This document shows positions 5,987 to 23,217 of a stretch of DNA of 41,787 bases, piece after piece. Source of the DNA: Kiritimatiellia bacterium (GTDB lineage Bacteria; Verrucomicrobiota; Kiritimatiellia; RFP12; UBA1067); NCBI GenBank assembly GCA_017463935.1, contig JAFUEM010000024.1, forward strand, positions 1-41,787, read 5' to 3'. A program made the position numbers and the translations under genes. Below the pieces are notes generated by a model. It was not told the origin of the DNA. It made no database searches and saw only the letters and a program-made list of their open reading frames with translations. Positions within the stretch are counted from its first letter, which is position 1; each line of letters begins with the position of its first letter.

Positions 5987-6754
5987 GTGATTGATCAATT
6001 GAAAAAATATCAGTTCCTGTTCGAGGAGCTCGTCAAGCGCGACTTCAAGAAGAAGTACAAGCGCACGGTGCTCGGCATGGGGTGGAGCATCCTGTCGCCG
6101 CTGCTGGTGCTGCTGGTGATGAAAATCATCTTCACCCAGTTTTTCGGCCGGACGATGACGCATTACACGACCTATCTCTTCTGCGGACTCCTGACCTTCA
6201 ACTGGTTTTCGGAGTCCACCAACCTCGGCATGCGCTGCCTGTATGCGAATGCCGCCGTCTTCACGAAGATCAACGTGCCGAAGTACCTCTTCCTGCTGGC
6301 GAGCAACGTGCAGACGCTGATCAACTTCGCGCTGACGCTTCTGGTGTTCTTCCTCTTCTGCGCGATCGACCGTATCGCCTTTACCTGGCGGTTCGTCCTG
6401 CTGATCTATCCCATCTTGACGCTGCTCGTGTTCAATATCGGCATGGGGCTCGTGCTGTCGGCGCTCTTCATGTTCTTCCGCGACGTCGACTATCTCTGGC
6501 GCGTCTTTCTCCGGCTCCTGATGTACGGCTCGGCCATCTTCTACACGATCGACCAGTTTTCCGCGCGGCTGAAGCTGGCGTTCGCCTGCAATCCCGTTTA
6601 TCGCCACATCGCCTACTTCCGCGAGGTCGTGATCGACGGTACCGTGCCGTCGCTTCCGGCGCATCTCGTGCTCGCGGGATTTGCGCTGGCGGCCTTCGCC
6701 GTTGGTGCGTTCATGTACAAGCATTACAACACGAAGTTCCTGTATTATGTCTAA
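5987..6754 (+). CDS. wzm: Polysaccharide ABC exporter permease (Wzm-like)
   Basis: This 255-aa ABC-2 type permease starts at GTG 5987. An N-terminal amphipathic segment is followed by FKKKYKRTVLGMGWSILSPL, typical of O-antigen, teichoic-acid and capsule exporters. Six hydrophobic spans lie at about residues 33-52, 63-80, 105-127, 134-160, 170-190 and 225-245. Its 3' end overlaps the ATPase gene by 8 nt, the usual Wzm-Wzt arrangement. It should form the membrane channel that moves the undecaprenyl-linked glycan across the cytoplasmic membrane. An extended -10 element lies directly upstream, and no ribosome site is visible. Confidence 0.9.
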   Translation: MIDQLKKYQFLFEELVKRDFKKKYKRTVLGMGWSILSPLLVLLVMKIIFTQFFGRTMTHYTTYLFCGLLTFNWFSESTNLGMRCLYANAAVFTKINVPKYLFLLASNVQTLINFALTLLVFFLFCAIDRIAFTWRFVLLIYPILTLLVFNIGMGLVLSALFMFFRDVDYLWRVFLRLLMYGSAIFYTIDQFSARLKLAFACNPVYRHIAYFREVVIDGTVPSLPAHLVLAGFALAAFAVGAFMYKHYNTKFLYYV

Positions 6755-8673: not shown

Positions 8674-10263
8674 ATGGAGAAGGTGGCGACAGACATCTAT
8701 TCGTTCGCGGAGCTGCGGAACGAGGGTTTCACATACGTCGACAAGACGCATGAACTTTACGCGATGGCGTCGGGAGACGTCGGCAAGCAGTTCTTCATCG
8801 CGCGTCCGCGTCGCTTCGGCAAGTCGCTCGCCGTCTCGACGCTGAAGGCGCTGTTCGAGGGGCGTCGCGAACTTTTCAAGGGTCTCGCCATCGAGCCCCT
8901 CTGGGACTGGTCGAAAAGGTGGCCCGTGCTGCATCTCGACATGGGGTCGATGCAGGCGCGAGACGTCGACGAGTTCAGAGAGCTGCTTGTCAGACAGCTG
9001 GAGAGAAGGGCGTCCGAGTTCGGCATTGAATGTCCGAAAGCGGACATCCCGTCGGAAATGTTCACGTCACTCATCGACGCGCTTGCCGCGAAGTCGCCGG
9101 ACGGACGGATGGTGCTTCTGGTGGACGAGTACGACAAGCCGCTTCTGGGGCATCTGATGAAGCCGGACGTGACGGATTTCCGTGACGAGCTGAAGGCGTT
9201 CTACTCCGTCATCAAGACTCTCGAGGCAAGGCAGCGCTTCACGTTCATCACGGGCGTGAGCAAGTTCTCGAAGGTGTCGATATTCTCCGATCTGAACAAC
9301 CTCAACGACTGGACGATGGATGCGACCGTCGCCACGCTCTTCGGCTATACGCACGAGGATGTCCTGAAGTATTTCCAGGGGCGCATACACGCGCTCGCCG
9401 AGGCGCACGGCCTTGCCGACGAGGAGGCGTTTGCGGAGATTGTCAAGTGGTATGACGGCTACAAGTTCCACCCGGCGGCACAGCCAGTCATCAACCCCGT
9501 CTCGCTCGGGCTCTGCTTTCAGAAGAACGACTTCGCCAACTACTGGTCGCAGACCGCGCTGCCGACGTTTCTGGTCGATATCCTGCGCAAGAAGCCGCTC
9601 GATTTCTCGTCCATCGACATATCCGAGTCGGAGCTCGGGAACTACGAGCCGACCAACCCGCGCGACACCACGCTCCTCTACCAGACCGGCTACCTGACGA
9701 TTTCCGGCTTTCGGAACATCGGCGGCTCGCGCCTCTATTCGCTCGACTTCCCGAACCGCGAAGTGCGCGAGTCGTTTCTGCACGATCTCGCGCCCGTGTA
9801 TTCCGGGCTTCGCGAGGACATTGCGGGCTCCGCGCAGATTGCGGCCATTACCGCGCTTTACGACCATGACGTGCCGAAGTTCCTGAAGGCGCTCAGAACG
9901 TTCTTTTCCAACATCCCGTACAGCCTCACGGACCGCCAGAACGAGCAGATGTGGCAGACGGTCGTGTACGTGATCCTGCGGCTCATCGGCGTGAGCGCCG
10001 AGGGCGAGGTGCAGACGAACGAAGGGCGCATCGACCTTGTCGCGAAGACGCCGGGCGACATCTACATCGTCGAATTCAAGCTGGACCGCCCGGCCGCCGA
10101 GGCGATGGAGCAGATCAAGGGCAGGGACTATGCCGGAAAATATGCCCTCGACGGTCGGCGCGTCACGCTTGTCGGCATTTCGTTCTCGTCGGAGAAGCGC
10201 ACCATCGTCGAGGAACTCGTCGAGGAGTTTCCGCAGGGCGGCAAGGTCAGAGGTGGGATGTGA
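8674..10263 (+). CDS. AAA-ATPase-like / PD-(D/E)XK nuclease-fold protein (copy 1)
   Basis: This 529-aa cytosolic protein belongs to the AAA-ATPase_like (PF09820) plus PDDEXK_9 (PF08011) architecture. A P-loop ARPRRFGKSLAV is at residues 43-54 and Walker B VLLVDEYDKPL at about 148-158. The sensor region FTFITGVSKFSKVSIFSDLNN lies at about 190-210. The C-terminal nuclease fold has GRIDLVAKTPGDIYIVEFKLD at about 451-471, with the D...ExK catalytic pattern intact. The cellular role of this abundant gut-bacterial family is not established; a mobile-element or defence function is only speculation. It has its own leaderless-type promoter behind a glycosyltransferase tail remnant and is not part of glycan chemistry. 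Copy 2 is at 21625. Confidence 0.9.
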   Translation: MEKVATDIYSFAELRNEGFTYVDKTHELYAMASGDVGKQFFIARPRRFGKSLAVSTLKALFEGRRELFKGLAIEPLWDWSKRWPVLHLDMGSMQARDVDEFRELLVRQLERRASEFGIECPKADIPSEMFTSLIDALAAKSPDGRMVLLVDEYDKPLLGHLMKPDVTDFRDELKAFYSVIKTLEARQRFTFITGVSKFSKVSIFSDLNNLNDWTMDATVATLFGYTHEDVLKYFQGRIHALAEAHGLADEEAFAEIVKWYDGYKFHPAAQPVINPVSLGLCFQKNDFANYWSQTALPTFLVDILRKKPLDFSSIDISESELGNYEPTNPRDTTLLYQTGYLTISGFRNIGGSRLYSLDFPNREVRESFLHDLAPVYSGLREDIAGSAQIAAITALYDHDVPKFLKALRTFFSNIPYSLTDRQNEQMWQTVVYVILRLIGVSAEGEVQTNEGRIDLVAKTPGDIYIVEFKLDRPAAEAMEQIKGRDYAGKYALDGRRVTLVGISFSSEKRTIVEELVEEFPQGGKVRGGM

Positions 10264-10268
10264 AGCGT

Positions 10269-10373
10269 GTGTGTATTCGGTCTTCGTCCGCGTCAGCGAA
10301 CTCGGGAATCGTCGAGAGCTGCGGCGGCAAGAAAACCGGCGGATGCTGCCGGAAGGAGGGCGAGGAACGATGA
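10269..10373 (+). CDS. Possible 34-aa Cys-rich small ORF or gene remnant
   Basis: A GTG-started frame just after the ATPase stop encodes a short peptide with a CGGKKTGGCCRK motif. It ends in an ATGA overlap with the next gene's start at 10370. It may be the residual 3' end of a lost gene, kept for translational coupling, or chance. No homologous family is recognised. Confidence 0.2.
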   Translation: MCIRSSSASANSGIVESCGGKKTGGCCRKEGEER

Positions 10374-13300
10374 AGAAAGCCGTGCCAGAAGACATGAAGG
10401 ATGCTCACGGCCTCTCGATAGATGTCTCCGTAGTCGTCCCGACCCATCGCCGTCATCAGTTTCTGAAGGATGCGCTTCAAAGCGTGTTCAAGCAGAAAGG
10501 CGTCGGTTTTGAGGTGATAGTCGTAAACGGCGTCGAGGACGACACGGATACGGATGCAGTCGTATCCGAATTCGACGTTGTCAAATACATACGGTCGAAA
10601 GAATATCTGTCCTGCAGTTCGAAGCGGGCCTTGGGGCTGTCGCTTGCAAAAGGCAGATACATCCATTTCATCGATGACGACGACTACATGATCGATGACG
10701 ATTTCTACAGGAAGGCCGTCGCCTTGCTGGATTCCAACGGCGAAATATCGTCGTTCTCCGGCAACTCCAGATTCCGGTTCGAAAGCACGGAAGGCGGAGA
10801 GCCGAAGTACAGCGATGCCGCGCCGCTGCCTTCGGGGCGCATCAACGGGCTTGAATACTTCAAAGTGCCAGCTGGAATGGGGCAAGCCCGACTTGATGGC
10901 GACGGTATTCCGCAAAGCGGCTCTTGTCGCCGACGATACCCTGCGGGAAGTCAACGATTCTTCGATCTATCTTCAATCCCTGCTGCACGGCGACGCATTC
11001 ATAATCGAAGATCGCGTTTGCGTTTACCGCAAGTGGGGCGGCTCCATCAGCCATGGTGGCGAAGGGAACGACTTGCGGCTGAAGATGGATACGGCCATTC
11101 AGAAAGAGCGCTTCTACCGTATCGTCGCCGGCAAAATCGCCGATGCCGGCAAGTGGTGGCGCGGAACGTTCGCCATGAACCTCAACTATTTCAGGCGTTC
11201 GACGCCCGATGTGCTGGAAATGGTGCTGTTCGCGGCGTGGGGCGTGCTCCATTCCCATGGAGATGGAGAGCTCGCGACCGAGTGCGCTGCGGCACTTGCC
11301 GCGATGCGGCCCGGAGCATTCGCGGGCCTGCCCAGCATGTCAAGTCGCCCCAGGATGTTGCTGCATCTCAGAGCGGCGCTTCACAAAATATTCCTCGGCG
11401 CCGCTGGAAACTATGAACCATATTATTCGCAGTTGATGGCGGACTTGGATGCCGAAATACGAAGAAACGGCCAAGTTTCCGATTTGGGCTTGGCGTATTT
11501 CACCGGCTTCCGCAATTTCGGCGATTTGCTCGGGTGCAGCCTTGTTGAATATCTTTGCGGCCTGCACATGTGCAACCAACCGCTTGGCGCGGCAGACATC
11601 GTGTCGGTCGGCTCGCTGCTTCAGGGTCTGTCCTGCCGCTTTGCCCAAGCGCAGGCGACCGCCGCCCCGCTTCACGTCTGGGGAAGCGGATTCCTCCATC
11701 CCGTCGAGCTTGGCAGGCCGCCTGTCAAGGGACGCGTGGTGTTTCACGCGGTCCGCGGGCGGAATACGCTCGCGCAGCTCCGGGAAACGGGACTCGTCGA
11801 TCCGGGCGAAGCTGTCGCCCTGGGCGACCCCGGCCTTTTTTACGCAGATCTGGTGCCAGGCGTCGAAAAGACGAAGAAAGAGTTCGACGTCGCCATCGTG
11901 CCGCACCATCTGGACAGCGAAGAGTTCAAAGCCGTCGCCGACGAACTGGCTTCGCAGGGTCTATCCGTAAAGTTCGTCGATGTCCGTCACGCCAACCCTA
12001 TGCAAGTCGTGCGCGACATCGCGGCATCGCGCAAGGTGCTGTCCTCTTCACTGCATGGAATCATCGTAGCCGACTCGCTCGGCATACCAAACGGGCGCAT
12101 TGTCGTGGATGGCTTTGAAACCGACGAAGAGAGGATGCGCAACGAAAGCGACTACAAATTTTCCGATTACTATTCCGCATTCGGCTTGGAGTGCCCAGAA
12201 CACATCAGCCTTTCAGAGTTGAAGCGCTCTCCCCGCAAGACCATTGAAAGCATGGTCGATTTCGTTCCGCAGGAAAAAGTGGAGGAGTGCAAGCGCAATT
12301 TGCTGGCCGCGTTTCCGTTCCCGAGGCGCGCGTCCGCCGCCGCCTTTCAAGATGTGCCGCAGTCGCCGGGCGTATCCGTAGTCGTCCCGATATGCAACAG
12401 CGAATACTATCTCCGGGAATGCTTGGATAGCGTGCTTTCCCAGGAGGAGTTCGCTTCGTTTGAATTGATATGCGTCGATGACGGCTCGACCGATTCTTCG
12501 GCCGCAATCGTGGAAGCCTACGCCGCAAGCGACCGCCGCGTCAGATTGCTCAGGCAAAAAAACGCCGGTCCCGGCGTCGCGCGCAATGCAGGGCTCGACG
12601 CCGCGCGCGGAGAATACATCTTCTTCCTCGACGCGGACGACCGCCTCTCCTGCGGCGAGGCGCTTCGCGAGGCGTACGAACAGGCGAAGGCGGACGACCT
12701 CGACGTCCTGCTCGCCGACGCCAACGACATGTCGGAAATCGGCAACGTGACGCGCAGCAACAAATATCTCTTGCGCGACCTACTTCCGGCTGCGCGCGTA
12801 TTCCCGCCGGAATCGCTAGGTGCAAATCTTTATATTGCGGCGACAATGTCGCCTTGGGCAAAACTGTTCCGGCGGCAATTCCTTGAAAAGAACGCGCTCA
12901 GGTTTCCGGCGCTCAAGCGGTCGGAGGATTTCCCGTTTGTACAGTTGGCAATGTCGCTCGCGCGTCGTATCGGCGCGTTGATCCGTACGGCGGTCGATCA
13001 CCGAATCGGCGTGGCGACGTCGCTGGAATCTACCAAGGACGAGACCCCGCTCGCATTCGCCGAGGCCGAACGGATATTTAGGGATTCCCTGTCCGAACAC
13101 GGCCTGCTGGACAAGTTCAGGGAGTCGGACAATGTCGCGCATGCTATCTATATTGCGTACAACCTGCACAGATTACGGCGTTTTTCTGATTTCAGGGCAG
13201 TTGCACAATATTGCGCGAAGGTATTCCCAGGTCTCAAGTTGAAAGGCGATGAAGCAAGTATATCTGCTTTTTCATATACGCATAAGCGCCTTGCGAATAT

Positions 13301-13937
13301 CGCTGCGACGGCGAATGACACGGATAGTTTGGCGGATGTCTTTGCCGAGATTAGAGCCATGGCGCGTGTAGAGGCCTTTCGCAATTCAAGCGAAGCGACC
13401 CTTGCGGCGAAGGACGCGGCGCTGGAGCAGCTGCGTGGCGCGACGGTGCAGCTCAGGGACAATATCGAGAAGCTGCGAGAAGCGATTGCGGCGAAGGACG
13501 CGGCGCTGGAGCAGCTGCGTGGCGCGACGGTGCAGCTCAGGGACAATATCGAAAAGCAGCGCGAGGCGATGGCCGCGAAAGATGCGTCCTTGGAAAAACA
13601 GCGCGAAACCACGGCGCAGCTCAGGGGCAATATCGAGAAGCTGCGCGAGGCGGTCAAAGTCAAAGATGAGGCGTTGGAACAACTGCGGGGAAACGCCAAA
13701 CGGCTGCGCGAGGCGAATGCCGCGAAAAACGCGGCGCTGGTGCAGTTGCGCGGTGCGACGGTACGGCTCCGCGCAGTGATTGAACAGCAGAGAAAGTCCA
13801 TGGCCGACAAAACCAAAGCGGTGATTGACCGCGACGCTGCAATTGAAAGATTGCGTTGCGATGTCGTCGAAAGGCAGCGTGCCGTGGACAGCTGTGCGCA
13901 AACAATCAGGCATTTAAAGGAAATCGTAGATCTATGA
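10370..13937 (+). CDS. Giant GT2-pyruvyltransferase-GT2-coiled-coil protein, with a frameshift
   Basis: Two overlapping frames form one protein of about 1188 aa if one base is removed near 10868. The order is a GT2 domain (about 1-230: VSVVVPTHRRHQFL, HFIDDDDYM); a polysaccharide pyruvyl-transferase-like domain (about 373-613: GFRNFGDLLG, WGSGFLHP, SSLHGIIVADSLGIPN); a second GT2 domain (about 670-900: VSVVVPICNSEYYLRECLDS, CVDDGSTDSS, FLDADD); and a heptad-repeat coiled coil (about 1000-1188). At 10861-10880 the reading AAAGTGCCAGCTGG breaks the frame. One fewer C restores EYFK-VQLEWGKPDLMA. It starts at ATG 10370 after GGAGGGCGAGGAA and ends in an ATGA overlap with the next GT2. It would add sugars and possibly ketal-linked pyruvate to the glycan. 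The frameshift may be real or a sequencing error. Confidence 0.8.
13404..13790 (+). repeat. 84-bp (28-aa) coiled-coil repeats
   Basis: Units begin at 13404, 13488, 13572 and 13656 with an exact 84-nt period, then a 63-nt step to 13719. The first two units are almost identical in DNA (AAKDAALEQLRGATVQLRDN). 84 and 63 nt are four and three heptads, so length changes keep the coiled-coil register. Confidence 0.85.
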
Positions 13938-15349
13938 AACAGTTGAAGAAGCCATCCAGAAACGGAATGCCTGAAGGAACGCCGGATGTCACGGTCATTA
14001 CCGTTGTTTTCAACGCGTTCAAAGGCGCGGGCGAAACCGCGCTCAGGGAATGTCTGGATTCCGTCCAGAATCAGACAGATATTCGGATCGAGCATCTGAT
14101 CATCGACGGGGCGTCGAACGACGGCACGACCGAGTTCATCTCCGGATACGACAATCAAAACCATCCCATCGTGTTCATCTCTGAACCGGACAAGGGAATC
14201 TACGACGCGATGAACAAAGGCATCGCCCAGGCTTCCGGCGAATATGCGATTTTTCTCAATTCGGACGACTTTTTCCACAATCCCGCCGGGATGCGCGAAT
14301 CGGTCAAACGTCTTCGCGAGACGGGTTGTGATTTCTCGTATGCGCCTGTCGTCGTGCTGCGGGATGGGCAGGTTCGCGACGTGCTCCATTCGCACGCGGA
14401 CGGGCGGTTGATTTTCTGCTCGATGCCTTTCTCCCATCAATCAATGGTGTCGAAGACCGACGTCCTGAGAAAAATGAATAGCTACGATATTTCCTATCGC
14501 AGTTCGGCGGATTACGACTTGATTCTCCGGATGGTGCTGTCCGGATGCACGGCCTGCTACGTCGATTGCGCGTTTTCTACGTTTCGTGTCGGCGGCTTTT
14601 CGCTCCAGAACATCGATACGAGCCAGCGCGAATGTGCACTTATCTATTCGCGGTTGCTGCCGCCTGTCACCGGGTATCCGCTTTCGCCGGAAAAAGCGCA
14701 CAGGATGTTCGTCTGGAAGATCATCCCGCGCGAAACGAAGGTGGCGCTGATCGACCGCTACACCCGCTCGTTCAGAAAGTGGCAGCCGCCGCTCGGGAAA
14801 ATCACGCCGCCTGAGAACGCCGAAACGCATGTGCTCGCGACGCGCTTCACGCGTTCCGCTGCCGACGACTGGGTTGACAGGCAGATTCCCGTCTGGCAGT
14901 TTGACGAATGCAAAAAAGTGTTTGCCGGCGAGCCGGCGCAGGATATCGTCTGGGCAAGCGATTTCTGGCATTTGTATTCATCGTATCTTTATGCAAAAAA
15001 CGGCGTCCGATGCGGCAAGAATCTCGGGATTCTCTTCCGCATCCCCGAAAATCTCAGGGGCGTGCGTACGCGTTTGCGCATTGCGTTTTCGCCGTTCTTC
15101 CGTCCGGACATGCCCAGACAGAGGTTTCGCTTCGCGGTAAACGGAAAGGTTTTCGCGGAAGTATCGGTAAAACGCTCTGTGTCGGTTGTTTGTGAGCTCC
15201 CGCTCCCGCAGGATGTCGCGGAGGATGGCTTTCTCGGCATAGAGATAGATAGCGGAGACGCCACGATCGCAGCATATTTCGGAAAGTCGATGGATTTGAG
15301 ACCTCAGGGATTTTTGTTCAGTTATGCAAAAGTGGAGGTCGCAGAATGA
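13934..15349 (+). CDS. GT2 (WcaA/WcaE-like) glycosyltransferase with C-terminal accessory domain
   Basis: This 471-aa protein (ATG 13934, ATGA overlap with the preceding gene) has a GT2 domain of the colanic-acid WcaE type. Its motifs are VITVVFNAFKGAGETALREC, HLIIDGASNDGTTEF, SEPDKGIYDAMNKGI and the metal-binding FLNSDDF at about residues 116-122. After about residue 250 comes a region of roughly 200 aa, rich in predicted beta strands from about 370 on. It is not part of the GT fold and could be a carbohydrate-binding or jelly-roll module. The paralogue at 20525 lacks this extension. The 3' end overlaps the next gene as ATGA. Confidence 0.85.
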   Translation: MKQLKKPSRNGMPEGTPDVTVITVVFNAFKGAGETALRECLDSVQNQTDIRIEHLIIDGASNDGTTEFISGYDNQNHPIVFISEPDKGIYDAMNKGIAQASGEYAIFLNSDDFFHNPAGMRESVKRLRETGCDFSYAPVVVLRDGQVRDVLHSHADGRLIFCSMPFSHQSMVSKTDVLRKMNSYDISYRSSADYDLILRMVLSGCTACYVDCAFSTFRVGGFSLQNIDTSQRECALIYSRLLPPVTGYPLSPEKAHRMFVWKIIPRETKVALIDRYTRSFRKWQPPLGKITPPENAETHVLATRFTRSAADDWVDRQIPVWQFDECKKVFAGEPAQDIVWASDFWHLYSSYLYAKNGVRCGKNLGILFRIPENLRGVRTRLRIAFSPFFRPDMPRQRFRFAVNGKVFAEVSVKRSVSVVCELPLPQDVAEDGFLGIEIDSGDATIAAYFGKSMDLRPQGFLFSYAKVEVAE

Positions 15350-17307
15350 AAACCTTGCTTGACGTTTCCAATGTAATCCAGAATCGCTTGACGCTGGCGA
15401 TCGTTTCGGCTTATGCGCGCAGGGGGGGGGGGGAGCTTCCTGAGCTTTATGCAAATACGGCATCGGTCGCGCAAATCCGCAAGTTCCTCGCCGAAAAGAC
15501 CCCCTGCACGAGGTGGCGGTTCTTTGTTGCACATGTCGATCCTTATGCCGATATGGTTGCCTGGCTTGAAAAAGGTCTTGCGTTCAAGTCGGCGAAAGGC
15601 GGTCTCGCGCTTCGCGGTTCCGCCAGATTTTTAAGCTTTTGCTGCCGTGTCCTTCTTCCATTGTTCACGGTGCTCAGCAAGCGCTCGGCGAAAAAGAATT
15701 CGTTGCTTGCGAAGTATGACGAGTTTTTGACTGTTTATCGCCCCGCACCTGCCTCTATCGTCCAGAGCGGACTCAAAATCGTTTCCGTCCTGCCGAATCC
15801 GGCGGCGATGAAGTTCCCGGAGAAATTCTTCAAGGATTCCAACTACGACTGGATGCGGAACCGTTTTCGCAGGCTTACGGACAAGGATGTCGTAATTCCC
15901 GCCCCCGACGCATGCAAGGAGGACATGCTTGTCTATGGGCCCGGTCTTCGCGAAGAGAACATTTTGAATGTCGCGCGCCCCGGCTCGGACGTCGATACAT
16001 GGGCGGATGGCATCGTTGCCGGGAAGCCGACAGGAGGGCGAGGCTACTACATCAACAACTGGCACAACAACGCCCCTCGCTCCGAGCTGCCTCGACCGCT
16101 TCTCGTCGGCGATATCGCCGTCATGCGGTGCCGCTTCCGCCTGGCGAAATCCTACAACGTCCCGGTCGATGGATTTGGCACGGCGTTGAAGTTGGGCGAT
16201 CCCCGCTTTGCCGCGCAGTTGAAGTCTTTCCTCCGCGCACATCCCTACAAATATACGTCGGCGGTTTTCATGGTCGGCAACCAGCTTGCGCAAAAGCCTG
16301 CGCAGGACATGCGGATTCTCAAGGAGCTTCAGGAGCTTGCCGGATGCGAGGCCATGCTTTGCTCGCCGTTTCCTGCGCACATGCAGGAGAAGAAGTATGT
16401 CGGCGCGGTAAACGCGGAGATGGCGGCCGGCCAGCGCGACTACATGGCGATGCTGGCAACGCGGCTCGGGTGGCGTTTCGTCGACGTGTTCCAGTACGTG
16501 ATGGAAGAGGCGCATACCGACGAAAGCACGGCGTTCTGCGCCGGGCGTTCGCATGTCGGCATGTCGCATTCGCTTCGCTCTCCCGACAAGACGAGCGCGC
16601 AGCAGATCAACGACGACGCGACCGCGATCCTGGCGATGGCGCTGGGGCTGAAGGAAGACGACGGCCCCGCCCAGAAGAGCGTCTATGAAGAACTTTTCAA
16701 GGCCGGCAAGATCGCGCCCGGCGAGGCCAAGCTCGAGTTCGAGGAGTGGGAAACGTTGACCATCAACGAGAACAGGCACTGCCGCTATCTGTTTGTCGGC
16801 GGCTGCCTCTTGCGCGACTGTTGCGCGGCGAGCGCCAAGCTGAAGTCGAAGCCTACGTCCGAGGTGTATGCGTCAAGCCACTCGATAGCCGATCCGGCAT
16901 ACATCGAGGGCCTGAAGTGCATGATGGAGGGCAAGACTTACGATGTCGCCTACTTCAATTTCGGTGCGCATTTCTTCCTGCATACGCGCGAAGAGTTCAC
17001 AAAGGCGTTCGACGAGATTCTTTCGATCCTGGCGGCGCATGCGCCGAAAGTCGTGCTGCTGACGCTGCCGGAGCTTGCCTCGACGGGCGAGTCGGATCGC
17101 GAGGAGTGCGACTTCAAGAACGAGAAGATCCGTTGGGCGAACGACCAGCTGCTCACGGTTTACTCGAAGAAGTACCCGGTCGTCCCCGTCCACCAGATGG
17201 CGCTCAAGTACGCCGCGCACCGCTGCGACTACTTCCATTTCGAGCGAAGCGTGTACGACGCGCTTTTCAAGGAGATCCAGGAGCAGATCGGCGAACCCGC
17301 CGAATAA
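15346..17307 (+). CDS. Unrecognised 653-aa protein with G12 tract; possible SGNH-like C-terminal domain
   Basis: The start overlaps the upstream stop (ATGA). The first 26 codons lead into a run of twelve G at 15422-15433, encoding Arg-Gly-Gly-Gly-Glu. With 12 G the frame is open for 653 codons; 11 or 13 G would truncate it. No confident family is seen. From about residue 480 the order YLFVGGCLLRDC, YFNFGAHFFLH, a Leu/Pro strand (VVLLTLPE) and a late DYFHFE resembles SGNH/GDSL esterase blocks I, III and V. The usual GDS nucleophile position reads GGC. The middle part (about 270-430) also has alternating strand/helix character and may be a second related domain. Its place between a glycosyltransferase and a CotH protein suggests glycan modification, which is an inference only. 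Confidence 0.65.
   Translation: MKTLLDVSNVIQNRLTLAIVSAYARRGGGELPELYANTASVAQIRKFLAEKTPCTRWRFFVAHVDPYADMVAWLEKGLAFKSAKGGLALRGSARFLSFCCRVLLPLFTVLSKRSAKKNSLLAKYDEFLTVYRPAPASIVQSGLKIVSVLPNPAAMKFPEKFFKDSNYDWMRNRFRRLTDKDVVIPAPDACKEDMLVYGPGLREENILNVARPGSDVDTWADGIVAGKPTGGRGYYINNWHNNAPRSELPRPLLVGDIAVMRCRFRLAKSYNVPVDGFGTALKLGDPRFAAQLKSFLRAHPYKYTSAVFMVGNQLAQKPAQDMRILKELQELAGCEAMLCSPFPAHMQEKKYVGAVNAEMAAGQRDYMAMLATRLGWRFVDVFQYVMEEAHTDESTAFCAGRSHVGMSHSLRSPDKTSAQQINDDATAILAMALGLKEDDGPAQKSVYEELFKAGKIAPGEAKLEFEEWETLTINENRHCRYLFVGGCLLRDCCAASAKLKSKPTSEVYASSHSIADPAYIEGLKCMMEGKTYDVAYFNFGAHFFLHTREEFTKAFDEILSILAAHAPKVVLLTLPELASTGESDREECDFKNEKIRWANDQLLTVYSKKYPVVPVHQMALKYAAHRCDYFHFERSVYDALFKEIQEQIGEPAE
15422..15433 (+). 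repeat. Poly-G (G12) homopolymer inside coding sequence
   Basis: Twelve consecutive G occur 76 nt into the 15346 gene. Gain of one G brings a TGA at 15441-15443 into frame (32-aa product). Loss of one G leads to a stop at 15632-15634 (95-aa product). This has the geometry of a slipped-strand phase-variation switch. No other G tract of comparable length was noticed in the window. Confidence 0.85.
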
Positions 17308-17343
17308 GTGACGACATGACAGGAGCTGAAAGGAAGTGGCGCC

Positions 17344-20300
17344 ATGAGTAGAGCATGCACTATGGGATTTGCGATCGTGGGAGCGTTCGCATCTTTTTCC
17401 AGTACCTTCTCGTCGCAGGTGGAAAGCGAGACGGACGAAGTCTTGCCCGTTGCCGCCATCCGGTTTGCGACGACTGCGCCTGCGCTCGGACAGGCCGTCG
17501 AGACGACGCTCTCCGGCGCGCTGTCCGACCCGGGCTATCGCTGGATTTCGTGGCCGGCGTGCGGCGATGCGGCGGAGGGAGTTGAGGTCGGCACGGGCGC
17601 GTCGTACGTCCCGACCGAGGACGACCTCGAGCGTTGGCTGCAAGTCCAGGTCTGGCAGGGCGACACGCTCGTATGCAGCAATGCGCTGTATTTCAGCCGT
17701 CTGCCGGTCGTCTACCTGACGACGGACGACGGCTTCGCCGTGACCAACAAGGAATACGTCTCGGCATCGCTGAAGATTCAAGGCAATTCCGAGTTCGCCC
17801 AGCAATACGACGGTGCTACGCAGGTGAAAGGTCGCGGCAATTCGTCGTGGTCGATCTACCCGCAGAAATCGTATAAACTCAAGCTTGACAAGAAGACCGA
17901 CCTGTTCGGATTCGGGAAGAACAAGCATTGGGTGCTGGTATCGTGTTTCCACGACAGGGCGCTTCTGCGCAACAAGTTCGCGAGCGAACTTGGCAAAGCC
18001 CTCGGCATCGTCGGCATGGACATGACATGGGTCGATGTAGTTTACAACGGTGAATATCATGGCGTCTATATGCTTTGCGAACATCTTCGCGTCGGCGACA
18101 ACCGCGTCGAGATTTTCGACTGGGAGGACGAAGCGGAGTCCGTGGCAGGCAAGCTGTACAAGGCTGTCAAATCCGCTGCCGCGCTGACGGCGGAGGATAA
18201 ATCGGCGCTCGAAACGCAGATGTCCGAGGATTTGTCCTGGATGTCCGATGGATTGCTCGTATTCAAGGGACAGACCTACGACTTGTCGGACTACGGCCTG
18301 AAGAAGGATTATGATTTTTCTGGCGGGTATCTTTTCGAAGTGGATGACAGGCTTAGCGGTGTTTCGCGGTTCAGGACGCCGGAAGGCGTGAAGGTGCTTG
18401 TCGACAAGCCTGAATTCGCCAAGAGCAACGCCGAGATGTTCAGCGTGGCGACATCGCTCTGGGCGCGTTTCGAAGCGGCGTACAAGTCGGCGGACGGGCG
18501 CAGCGGCGACGGTACGCGCTATACCGAAATAGCCGACCTCGATTCCATGGCGGCATTTTGGCTTGTCAACGAACTCTTTGGGCAGAACGACACTGCCAAC
18601 AGCCGGTTCAGTTTTATCGACCAAGGCGGGAAACTGACGTTCGGGCCTGTCTGGGATTACGACTACAGTTCTGCCGCAGGATTGCTTGCATCACAAGCAG
18701 GCTTGAGTTTTACGACATTTTTCAACCGGAACGCCGACAACTGGTTCCGCGATTGGGTGCGCCACCAGGATTTCAGAAGCCGCGTCATCGAGCTGTACTG
18801 GCGGATTGCGCGCCCCCAAATGTTGGAAATCGCCGATTCGCCGGCACTTGAAGAACTGATAACCCGCCTGTCTGAAGCGGGTGCGGCCGAAGACGCCCGC
18901 TGGGGGGCGTATCCAAATCCCTACCGCGCCGAGGCGGTGATGCCGTCACATGCTGAAGACGTCGAGAACTGGCACAGTTACATCTTGAGGCACCTCGCGT
19001 GGCTGGATGTGCAGTTTTCCTCCGAGAAGTCTTTTGCGCAGTGCTTGAAAACAGTCTGTCCAGACCAGGGGTGCATAGCCTATGATTTGGCCGGCGGCGC
19101 GACCACGAGCGAACTCCGGACGCTCGTCGATCCAGATGCGTGGTTCAACATATCCCGCCCAAAGCGCCAGGGCTACGTGTTCGCCGGATGGACGGCCAGC
19201 GGCGACATCTCGGCGAAAGCCAGATGGTCGGTGCAGCGCAACACATCGCAGCCGATGACATCCGCGACTCTCTGCGGAACAAACAGCAATTACTGCGCGT
19301 TCAGGGGATTGGCCGAGCCGGGCGGCGTCGTCTGCCTGCGCGCGAACTGGGTTCGTCCAGGCGGCGGCTATGCCATCGAGTACGATCTGGCCGACGGGCG
19401 GGCCGAAGCGACGTATCCGGTTTCGGCTGCCAAGGATGAAGATCTGGAACTCCCCGCGCCAGTGCGCAATGGCTATGAGTTCGCCGGGTGGTCGTTGGAA
19501 GGAAGTCTTGCAGAAGAAGCGTCTTTTTCTGTTCCGGGCGCCGATGCGTCCGGATTGTCCGGTGCCATCGCGTATGGCGGTGGTTTCGAGCGTTGCAAAT
19601 TCCGCAACCTGGCCGTGTCTGGAGGTTTTGTGCGCCTCACGGCGCGTTGGACGATTCCCGGCGGCTATGCCGTCGAGTACGAACTCGGCGGCGGCAAGGC
19701 GGGTTCTTCGTATCCGGCTTCGATCGCGCGCAAGGGCTGGCTCTACTTGAAAACGCCGGTGAAAGAGGGCTATGTCTTCGCCGGGTGGTCGCTCGTCGGC
19801 GATCTTTCCGCCTCTGGACGCTATTCGACCCAATCGGGCGTCTCGCAGCTGCTCGATCCTGCGGCACCGTCTTATGGCGGCGGACACGACTATTGCTCGT
19901 TCTATGGCCTGCTCAAAGAGGCTGGCGTCGTTCGCTTGTGCGCGAACTGGGCCGTTCCCAAAGGGTATGCCGTCGAATACGATCTGGCAGGCGGCGTCGC
20001 AACCGGCACATACGCGGCTTTGTTCAAGGCGGCGGTCTGGACGACCGTGCCAGCGCCGCGCCGCGATGGATACTCGTTTGCGGGATGGATTGTCGAAGGG
20101 GCGGAGATCGGCTCCAATGCGCGTTACTCTGTCGTGGCCAACGAACGCCATCCTGTTCTCGCCGGGACGCCGTGCGGTGCTGGTTACTCAAGATGCTCGT
20201 TCAAGGAGTTGACGAATGCCGGCGGAGCTGTTCGCCTAACTGCGCAATGGCAGAGTGTCATTACCAAGTCTTCTCAGCTGAAAGCCATCTCCATGCAGAT

Positions 20301-20544
20301 GGCACCGGAACCGCTTGTCGTCGAAGGCATCCTGGGCGATGGGTTTGGATGGTTCAAGATGACGCTTGACTATGGATCATGGCCTGGTGTGGCTACGTTA
20401 AGCATCGTCACATGCGCAAGTCAAGACGAGTTTGACTGCTTTGTTTTCGCATGCGATGATCAAGAATGGCGGCTGGTGGACAAAAATGGCGGACTATGGA
20501 CTATCTGCCGCGAAGAGGACATGGATGTTTGCTATGGATTATGA
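17344..20544 (+). CDS. CotH-kinase family protein with Listeria-Bacteroides-type repeats
   Basis: This 1066-aa protein has a hydrophobic N-terminus (about residues 5-25, a possible signal peptide). The CotH kinase domain covers about 110-560: KGRGNSSWSIYPQKSYKLKL, LLRNKFASELGKALG, VYNGEYHGVYMLCEH, FWLVNELFGQNDT and the metal-site GPVWDYDYSS. CotH proteins are Fam20C-like protein kinases. From about 576 there are four repeats of roughly 100 aa, each with a YxxEYDLxGG strand and a GYxFAGW motif, related to Flg_new/Listeria-Bacteroides repeats found in surface proteins. A unique C-terminus of about 90 aa follows. An AAAGGAAG ribosome site precedes ATG 17344. Targets could be surface proteins, including neighbours; this is inference. 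The 3' end overlaps the next glycosyltransferase. Confidence 0.85.
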   Translation: MSRACTMGFAIVGAFASFSSTFSSQVESETDEVLPVAAIRFATTAPALGQAVETTLSGALSDPGYRWISWPACGDAAEGVEVGTGASYVPTEDDLERWLQVQVWQGDTLVCSNALYFSRLPVVYLTTDDGFAVTNKEYVSASLKIQGNSEFAQQYDGATQVKGRGNSSWSIYPQKSYKLKLDKKTDLFGFGKNKHWVLVSCFHDRALLRNKFASELGKALGIVGMDMTWVDVVYNGEYHGVYMLCEHLRVGDNRVEIFDWEDEAESVAGKLYKAVKSAAALTAEDKSALETQMSEDLSWMSDGLLVFKGQTYDLSDYGLKKDYDFSGGYLFEVDDRLSGVSRFRTPEGVKVLVDKPEFAKSNAEMFSVATSLWARFEAAYKSADGRSGDGTRYTEIADLDSMAAFWLVNELFGQNDTANSRFSFIDQGGKLTFGPVWDYDYSSAAGLLASQAGLSFTTFFNRNADNWFRDWVRHQDFRSRVIELYWRIARPQMLEIADSPALEELITRLSEAGAAEDARWGAYPNPYRAEAVMPSHAEDVENWHSYILRHLAWLDVQFSSEKSFAQCLKTVCPDQGCIAYDLAGGATTSELRTLVDPDAWFNISRPKRQGYVFAGWTASGDISAKARWSVQRNTSQPMTSATLCGTNSNYCAFRGLAEPGGVVCLRANWVRPGGGYAIEYDLADGRAEATYPVSAAKDEDLELPAPVRNGYEFAGWSLEGSLAEEASFSVPGADASGLSGAIAYGGGFERCKFRNLAVSGGFVRLTARWTIPGGYAVEYELGGGKAGSSYPASIARKGWLYLKTPVKEGYVFAGWSLVGDLSASGRYSTQSGVSQLLDPAAPSYGGGHDYCSFYGLLKEAGVVRLCANWAVPKGYAVEYDLAGGVATGTYAALFKAAVWTTVPAPRRDGYSFAGWIVEGAEIGSNARYSVVANERHPVLAGTPCGAGYSRCSFKELTNAGGAVRLTAQWQSVITKSSQLKAISMQMAPEPLVVEGILGDGFGWFKMTLDYGSWPGVATLSIVTCASQDEFDCFVFACDDQEWRLVDKNGGLWTICREEDMDVCYGL
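19060..20250 (+). repeat. Four divergent repeats of about 100 aa in the CotH protein
   Basis: Repeat starts lie near 19072, 19363, 19660 and 19965 (spacing about 290-305 nt). Each begins with a Y-A-(I/V)-E-Y-(D/E)-L-like strand and carries a G-Y-x-F-A-G-W core. A late C-(S/A/K)-F segment comes before the next unit. They are divergent in DNA, unlike the nearly uniform array at 37637. Confidence 0.75.
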
Positions 20545-21624: not shown

Positions 21625-23217
21625 ATGGAGAAGTTGGCGACAGACATCTATTCGTTCGAGCGGCTTCGCGAGAGCGGTTTTACGTACGTTGACAAGACGC
21701 GCGAACTCTACGCGATGGCGTCGGGTGACGTAGGCGTACAGTTTTTCATCGCGCGTCCGCGGCGCTTCGGCAAATCGCTCGCCGTATCGACGTTGAAGGC
21801 GCTTTTCGAAGGGCGGCGCGAACTTTTCAAGGGCCTGGCGATCGAGCCGCTCTGGGATTGGTCGAAGAAATGGCCTGTGCTGCATCTCGACATGGGGACG
21901 ATGCAGTATGATACCGTAGAAGAATTAGACCAGTCCTTGAGAGATTATTTTTGCCTAATGGCATCGGAGGTGGGTGTTTCGCTCGACCGGACGAAATTGA
22001 TGCCCGACATGTTTCGCGATATGATACGCGAGTTGGCGGCGAAATCCTTCGACGGTCGATGCGTAGTCCTGATCGATGAATACGACAAGCCGCTCTTGAA
22101 AGCGCTCGATACCACAGATGTCTGCAAATTCCGAGACTACCTGAAACCATTCTACGGCGTTGTGAAATACGAGGGTGAGAAACAGCGCTTCACGTTTATC
22201 ACGGGCGTGAGCAAGTTTTCGAAGGTGTCGATATTTTCGGATTTGAACAATCTGAAGGACTGGACGATGTACGCGAGCGTCGCGACGCTTTTCGGCTACA
22301 CGCACGAGGAAGTGCGCAAGTATTTCCCTGGACGCATACATACGCTCGCCGAGGCGAACTCGCTCACGGACGAAGAGGCGTTCGCCGAAATAATCAAGTG
22401 GTACGACGGCTATAAGTTCCATCCTTCTGCCAAACCTGTCATCAATCCGGTTTCGCTCGGACTTTGTTTCGAAAACAACGATTTCGCCAACTACTGGTCG
22501 AAGACGGCGGTGCCTACGTTTTTGATCGCCATCCTCGCGAAGCATCCACTCGATTTTTCGAGCGTGAACGTGAGCGACGACCGCCTGGAGGCGTACGAGC
22601 CGGAGAACCCCGACGTCACGACGCTTCTCTACCAGACAGGCTATTTGACGATCAAGGCTGCGCACCGCCTGAACGACATGACGGTTTACGACCTCGGCTT
22701 CCCGAACAGGGAAGTTGCAAACTCGTTCACTTCGAGACTTGCGCCGGCATATGTCGATATGGAGCCGCCATCCGCAGAGTCTGCGCAGATAGCGGCAGCA
22801 CGTGCGCTGTTGGCGCACGACGTCGCGAAGTTCATAAAGGCGCTCAAGACGTTTTTCGCGAATATTCCGTACGACCTGACGGACAGGCAGAACGAGCAGA
22901 CGTGGCAGGCGATCGTGTATGTGGTGCTGAAGGCCGTCGGCGTGGGCGTGCAGTCGGAAGTGAAGACGAACGACGGGCGCATCGACATGGTGGTCGATCT
23001 CCCCGGCGACATCTACATCGTCGAATTCAAGCTCGACAAGCCTGCGTCAGAGGCGATCGAGCAGATCAAGGGCAGGGACTACGCCGGGAAGTACGCGCTT
23101 TCCGGCAAGCGCGTCACGCTGATCGGCATCTCCTTCTCGTCTGAAAAGCGCACCATCGTCGAGGAACTCGTCGAGGAGTTTCCGCAGGGCGACAAGGTCA
23201 GAGGTGGTGAGGCGTGA
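21625..23217 (+). CDS. AAA-ATPase-like / PD-(D/E)XK nuclease-fold protein (copy 2)
   Basis: This 530-aa paralogue of the protein at 8674 has the same architecture: P-loop ARPRRFGKSLAV, Walker B VVLIDEYDKPL, ITGVSKFSKVSIFSDLNN, and a C-terminal nuclease fold GRIDMVVDLPGDIYIVEFKLD. The first 90 residues, the sensor region and the last 60 residues are nearly identical between copies. Residues about 92-140 and 160-185 are strongly divergent. The divergent block may determine specificity, or the conserved blocks may be homogenised by gene conversion. The promoter is leaderless-type. The stop overlaps the GTG of the following GT8-GT2 gene (GTGA), so that gene may be expressed from the ATPase promoter. 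Confidence 0.9.
   Translation: MEKLATDIYSFERLRESGFTYVDKTRELYAMASGDVGVQFFIARPRRFGKSLAVSTLKALFEGRRELFKGLAIEPLWDWSKKWPVLHLDMGTMQYDTVEELDQSLRDYFCLMASEVGVSLDRTKLMPDMFRDMIRELAAKSFDGRCVVLIDEYDKPLLKALDTTDVCKFRDYLKPFYGVVKYEGEKQRFTFITGVSKFSKVSIFSDLNNLKDWTMYASVATLFGYTHEEVRKYFPGRIHTLAEANSLTDEEAFAEIIKWYDGYKFHPSAKPVINPVSLGLCFENNDFANYWSKTAVPTFLIAILAKHPLDFSSVNVSDDRLEAYEPENPDVTTLLYQTGYLTIKAAHRLNDMTVYDLGFPNREVANSFTSRLAPAYVDMEPPSAESAQIAAARALLAHDVAKFIKALKTFFANIPYDLTDRQNEQTWQAIVYVVLKAVGVGVQSEVKTNDGRIDMVVDLPGDIYIVEFKLDKPASEAIEQIKGRDYAGKYALSGKRVTLIGISFSSEKRTIVEELVEEFPQGDKVRGGEA

Follow-up and report, generated by a model that had tools for sequence, protein, structure and literature searches.

Poly-G and poly-C contingency loci are well described in a few bacterial groups. 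Campylobacter jejuni NCTC11168 has 29 of them, with tracts of 7 or more (PMC4965091). The pmp autotransporter genes of Chlamydia contain long poly-G tracts, and different sequencing efforts found these in frame or out of frame (PMC3323650). In Neisseria, the autotransporter genes nalP and mspA carry poly-C tracts of 6–15 bp, and sizeable ON and OFF fractions are seen among isolates (PMC3723659). Poly-A and poly-T tracts are biased to the 5' end of prokaryotic genes, as inactivation points (PMC2831843).

The window analysed here is a stretch of 41,787 nucleotides from a Kiritimatiellia bacterium. It corresponds to contig C44 in a genome of 2.79 Mb and 354 contigs (G000). The initial annotation had placed a run of twelve G 76 nt inside a 653-aa frame, and direct reading of the letters bore this out. 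The run is exactly twelve G long with an A on either side, begins 76 nt from ATG 15346, and is the only G/C run of 7 nt or more in the 41.8-kb window (Table 1). Its length exceeds chance. A Markov model trained on a 224-kb genome sample, where a G follows a G with a probability of 0.23, predicts around 0.11 G/C runs of at least 12 per 2.79 Mb, or around 0.002 per window. Under the codon usage of the genome, the probability that Arg-Gly-Gly-Gly is written as AGG GGG GGG GGG is around 6e-4.

Table 1. Coordinates of the tract, its gene and the features discussed with them (window positions unless another contig is named).
Feature	Position	Strand	Remarks
Stretch duplicated as contig C177	10003..15432	+	99.98% identical; ends exactly after the 11th G
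Upstream GT2 glycosyltransferase	13856..15349	+	Pfam PF00535, E = 9e-22; TGA overlaps ATG 15346 (ATGA)
GGAGG, probable ribosome-binding site for the 653-aa frame	15334..15338	+	Sequence context TGGAGGTCGCAGAATG
653-aa tract-bearing gene	15346..17307	+	C-terminal SGNH/GDSL-like domain, approximately residues 467-650
Second ATG	15413..15415	+	Precedes the tract by 9 nt; shares the frame of the gene body only at 13 (or 10) G
G12 homopolymer	15422..15433	+	Codons (AG)G GGG GGG GGG G(AG); read directly from the letters
CotH-domain secreted protein	17344..20544	+	36 nt past the stop of the 653-aa gene; own AGGAAG site
Example leader locus L029 (G000:C134)	6008-6160 and 16583-20000
Example leader loci L025, L027, L060-L222

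The computed products from ATG 15346 are 653 aa at G12, 31 aa at G10, 95 aa at G11, 32 aa at G13 and 96 aa at G14. The early stops initially proposed for both one-base slips hold for this start codon (95 aa at G11 and 32 aa at G13), but the G13 state is maybe not fully off. With 13 G, the second ATG comes into frame and gives a product of 631 aa, and +1 slips may thus lower expression rather than abolish it. The tract could then exert graded control, with G12 read from ATG 15346 as the high state, G13 read from ATG 15413 as the low state and G11 as off. At G13, ribosomes from ATG 15346 would stop approximately 30 nt past ATG 15413, and re-initiation could follow. However, the sequence context ahead of ATG 15413 contains no clear Shine-Dalgarno. 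The N-terminal residues lost are mostly conserved in the orthologue described below (G015), thus suggesting that the short form may not work. We consider graded control improbable.

By sequence comparison, the 653-aa protein has a recognisable SGNH/GDSL relationship. Residues 467–587 match PDB 4h08, a putative hydrolase, with E = 6e-12. This narrows the "unrecognised function" of the initial annotation for these residues; the remainder is without assignment. Pfam Lipase_GDSL_2 scores 23 bits on the protein, which is under the cut-off of 32.9. The catalytic Ser of the first SGNH block is absent: LIGNSITRG of 4h08 aligns with FVGGCLLRD, in which a Cys replaces the Ser. No signal peptide was found in the protein. 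An AlphaFold model calculated from two sequences (the protein and its single orthologue) had a mean pLDDT of 35 and was unusable.

The tract is located in a glycosyltransferase operon, in agreement with the polysaccharide operon proposed at the outset. More glycosyltransferases follow in the operon, and together with the ATGA overlap to the GT2 gene they reasonably point to a role in glycan modification. It is from this gene neighbourhood that the 653-aa protein is presumably linked to surface glycan. An effect on the downstream CotH gene through translational coupling had also been suggested. This is unsupported, because CotH lies beyond a gap with its own AGGAAG site and is missing between the orthologous neighbours in G015. 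Transcriptional polarity on CotH is possible. Paralogous AAA-ATPase_like/PDDEXK_9 genes (8674–10263 and 21625–23217) lie on either side of the glycosyltransferase genes and CotH. Also in the window, a GT2/pyruvyl-transferase gene is split into two frames (10037–11416 and 10695–13937) by a frameshift of one base at a G4 (10877–10885). The same frameshift is present in C177, which excludes a single-contig error.

We propose that the 653-aa SGNH-domain protein is controlled by the G12 as a simple-sequence contingency switch. A one-base replication slip (to G11, perhaps less completely to G13) would end translation soon past the tract. With the enzyme lost, the surface glycan that the surrounding glycosyltransferases make would presumably lack one of its modifications, and reverse slips would restore the 653-aa protein. 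Variation of tract length in the living population, its reversibility, selection on it and the glycan as its target are all features that we infer. On balance, we lean towards the focal G12 being a slippage-prone contingency tract that likely joins the known homopolymer contingency class.

Only one orthologue of the gene (G015, 75% identical) was found among 115 family genomes. The site reads CGC AAG GGA GGC GAG in the orthologue versus CGC AGG GGG GGG GGG GAG here. The only gap in the 653-column alignment is one Gly codon missing at the tract, which means that this site has become either longer or shorter since divergence. The initial annotation had held that interrupted Gly codons in homologues would speak against a switch. 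They are interrupted in the only orthologue (GGA GGC), and thus the contiguous tract is not conserved. The main rival to the contingency reading is neutral slippage. On this view, long G runs are generated or tolerated in the lineage, the focal one appeared by chance where two Gly codons were conserved, and any change of its length is a deleterious mutation rather than a selected switch. The orthologue without a tract is in line with such an origin, as is the ancestral Gly-Gly motif that was available as a seed.

The redundant contig C177 breaks off within the tract. A break of the assembly graph at G11 is expected if G11 reads (next base A) and G12 or longer reads (next base G) coexist. We take the end of C177 as suggestive only of mixed tract lengths. 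It could also stem from PCR or sequencing slippage that produced G11 reads, and PCR is known to overstate tract variation 20–35-fold in Campylobacter (PMC4965091). Among the flanks searched, which were those of the tracts preceding C140, only the focal locus has a redundant contig ending in the tract. C177 starts within the AAA-ATPase_like/PDDEXK_9 gene at 8674–10263, in a stretch 84% identical to the paralogue at 21625–23217. A 29-aa match in C177 had hinted at a second copy of the focal 5' segment, ahead of a different gene; this was rejected, as C177 is a redundant copy of the locus.

Both the G12 and the break in C177 could also come from the sequencing of a hard homopolymer, the true run being shorter, longer or fixed in frame. 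The genome is metagenome-assembled, poly-G is error-prone, and another contig (C209) opens with 24 C, itself maybe an artefact. However, the reading frame is unbroken, with homology before and after the tract, and such runs recur at similar gene positions in many independent assemblies. An assembly artefact is improbable in our view.

Long G/C runs are not confined to this locus. Genome-wide pattern searches gave 22 distinct G/C runs of at least 9 nt; a 23rd, in C177, is the copy of the focal run. There are 20 runs of at least 10 nt against approximately 2 expected. Runs of 7 and 8 nt are rare (224-kb genome sample). The majority of the long runs are intergenic, which makes neutral slippage a real alternative. 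Against it, the runs inside genes cluster less than 80 nt from the start: six were placed inside an open frame, and five of these lie 28–76 nt past the start codon (C44, C87, C121 and, twice, C134). In the assembly, C87 (G10) and C134b (G13) have out-of-frame tracts, and the tracts in C121 and in the focal gene are in frame. The tract in C134a (G11, L029 6017–6165) reads through a 48-aa leader, the stop of which overlaps (ATGA) the start codon of the next gene, and the product of that gene carries a Tat-like signal. A tract may thus act on the next gene via a short upstream frame. The sixth, in C222, encodes Gly codons 890 nt inside the frame and is not a typical 5' switch. C140, at first taken as a phase-variable glycosyltransferase, was rejected, as its tract comes only at the 3' extremity of the frame. 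The right flank of the tract near 4725 of L024 (G000:C49) is a 70-nt repeat with copies on five or more other contigs of this genome. A plasmid collection that was searched for a relative gave none.

Across the family, many genes share a leader layout: a Shine-Dalgarno and ATG, approximately 28 nt, G9–14, and then the signal-peptide core of a large secreted protein. The pattern GGAG-ATG-(6–36 nt)-G9 has matches in 15 of the 58 genomes of the genus. When a non-G end is required, there are 34 matches in the genus versus 6 for the reversed pattern, and around 91 versus 22 in the family (summed without G145, an outlying count), although not all matches are true leaders. Post-start G tracts in the surface genes of relatives are thus far commoner than the reversed pattern, which is a further point against neutral slippage. 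Taken together, we consider neutral slippage unlikely, though less so than the other alternatives.

In 64 leaders picked by eye from the pattern list, the distance from ATG to tract peaks at 28 nt, and in most the signal-peptide core follows immediately past the tract. Most of the proteins are large, and the domains recognised in them are PATR or LamG. Some leaders in G091 and G022 are followed by another Met that has a signal peptide of its own, and there the leader may form an upstream frame distinct from the gene. Leaders that are approximately 84–98% identical, in general as far as the tract or close to it, stand ahead of proteins that differ from one another, and their tracts differ in length. 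Examples are found in C134 (G11 and G13), in G002 (G12 and G10) and, several times, in G091. In G000, G002 and G091, the homology of leaders often stops close to the tract or right at it, so that the tract looks like a joint for swapping 5' ends as well. Loci in G058 and G055 that share a leader have an interrupted tract and are in frame, which parallels the orthologue at the focal site.

Leader loci with a hydrophobic core past the tract divide evenly between 30 in frame and 29 out of frame (59 in total); these loci are non-independent, with related leaders and several per genome, and their start codons were chosen by rule, with a few wrong (for example, L063 and L146). Tracts of at least 10 are in frame in 13 of 38 cases, and tracts of 8–9 in 17 of 21. 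The difference has a Fisher p of 0.0009, or 0.05 without G117, which contributes eight of the short in-frame cases; the comparison was made after the table was seen, and assembled lengths are maybe off by one. The value of 13/38 is close to the one third that would result if length were independent of frame, and such independence is what hypermutable switches should show.

We think it likely that this family of uncultured Kiritimatiellae has a phase-variable regulon of surface proteins, dispersed over the genome. A 5' leader made of a ribosome site, an ATG, around nine codons and G9–14 would be used repeatedly, setting the run ahead of the signal-peptide core of many large secreted proteins but after the start codon, and single-base slips would toggle each protein independently. 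The focal tract would extend the same G-run strategy to a glycan operon. It is itself outside the leader module by two features: it lies 76 nt after the start codon versus 19–38 nt in the leaders, and no signal-peptide core comes right after the tract, where the protein continues ELPELYANTASVAQIRKFL.

The putative family-wide switching system looks undescribed. A literature search gave no report on phase variation in Kiritimatiellae, although few subscription papers were covered and this is weak evidence of novelty. If the reading is true, homopolymer phase variation reaches an uncultured phylum and acts there on a glycan operon and on an array of large surface proteins. The leader module also suggests a rule for annotation: many of the signal-peptide genes in these genomes that seem start-less or frameshifted may be in the OFF state and not pseudogenes.

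In comparison with the described systems, the tracts biased to 5' gene ends (PMC2831843) are short A/T runs, and long G/C runs are generally under-represented in that survey. Campylobacter jejuni is similar in having many G/C runs per genome, in reading frames, with one-base slips giving ON and OFF. There, switching rates and colony states were measured, whereas the present comparison is of assembled lengths alone, and in a different phylum. Chlamydia and Kiritimatiellae both belong to the PVC group. The Chlamydia pmp genes are the nearest parallel by broad relationship and by target, as large autotransporter-type proteins with poly-G. They are from a pathogen family in which no shared leader module is reported, and they parallel the family-wide leader loci rather than, directly, the focal SGNH gene. 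As in nalP and mspA of Neisseria, the homopolymer is within the coding sequence of large autotransporters. The Neisseria case consists of two loci with population data, whereas the tract in Kiritimatiellae follows the start codon and precedes the signal-peptide core, and the leader that holds it is shared by several genes.
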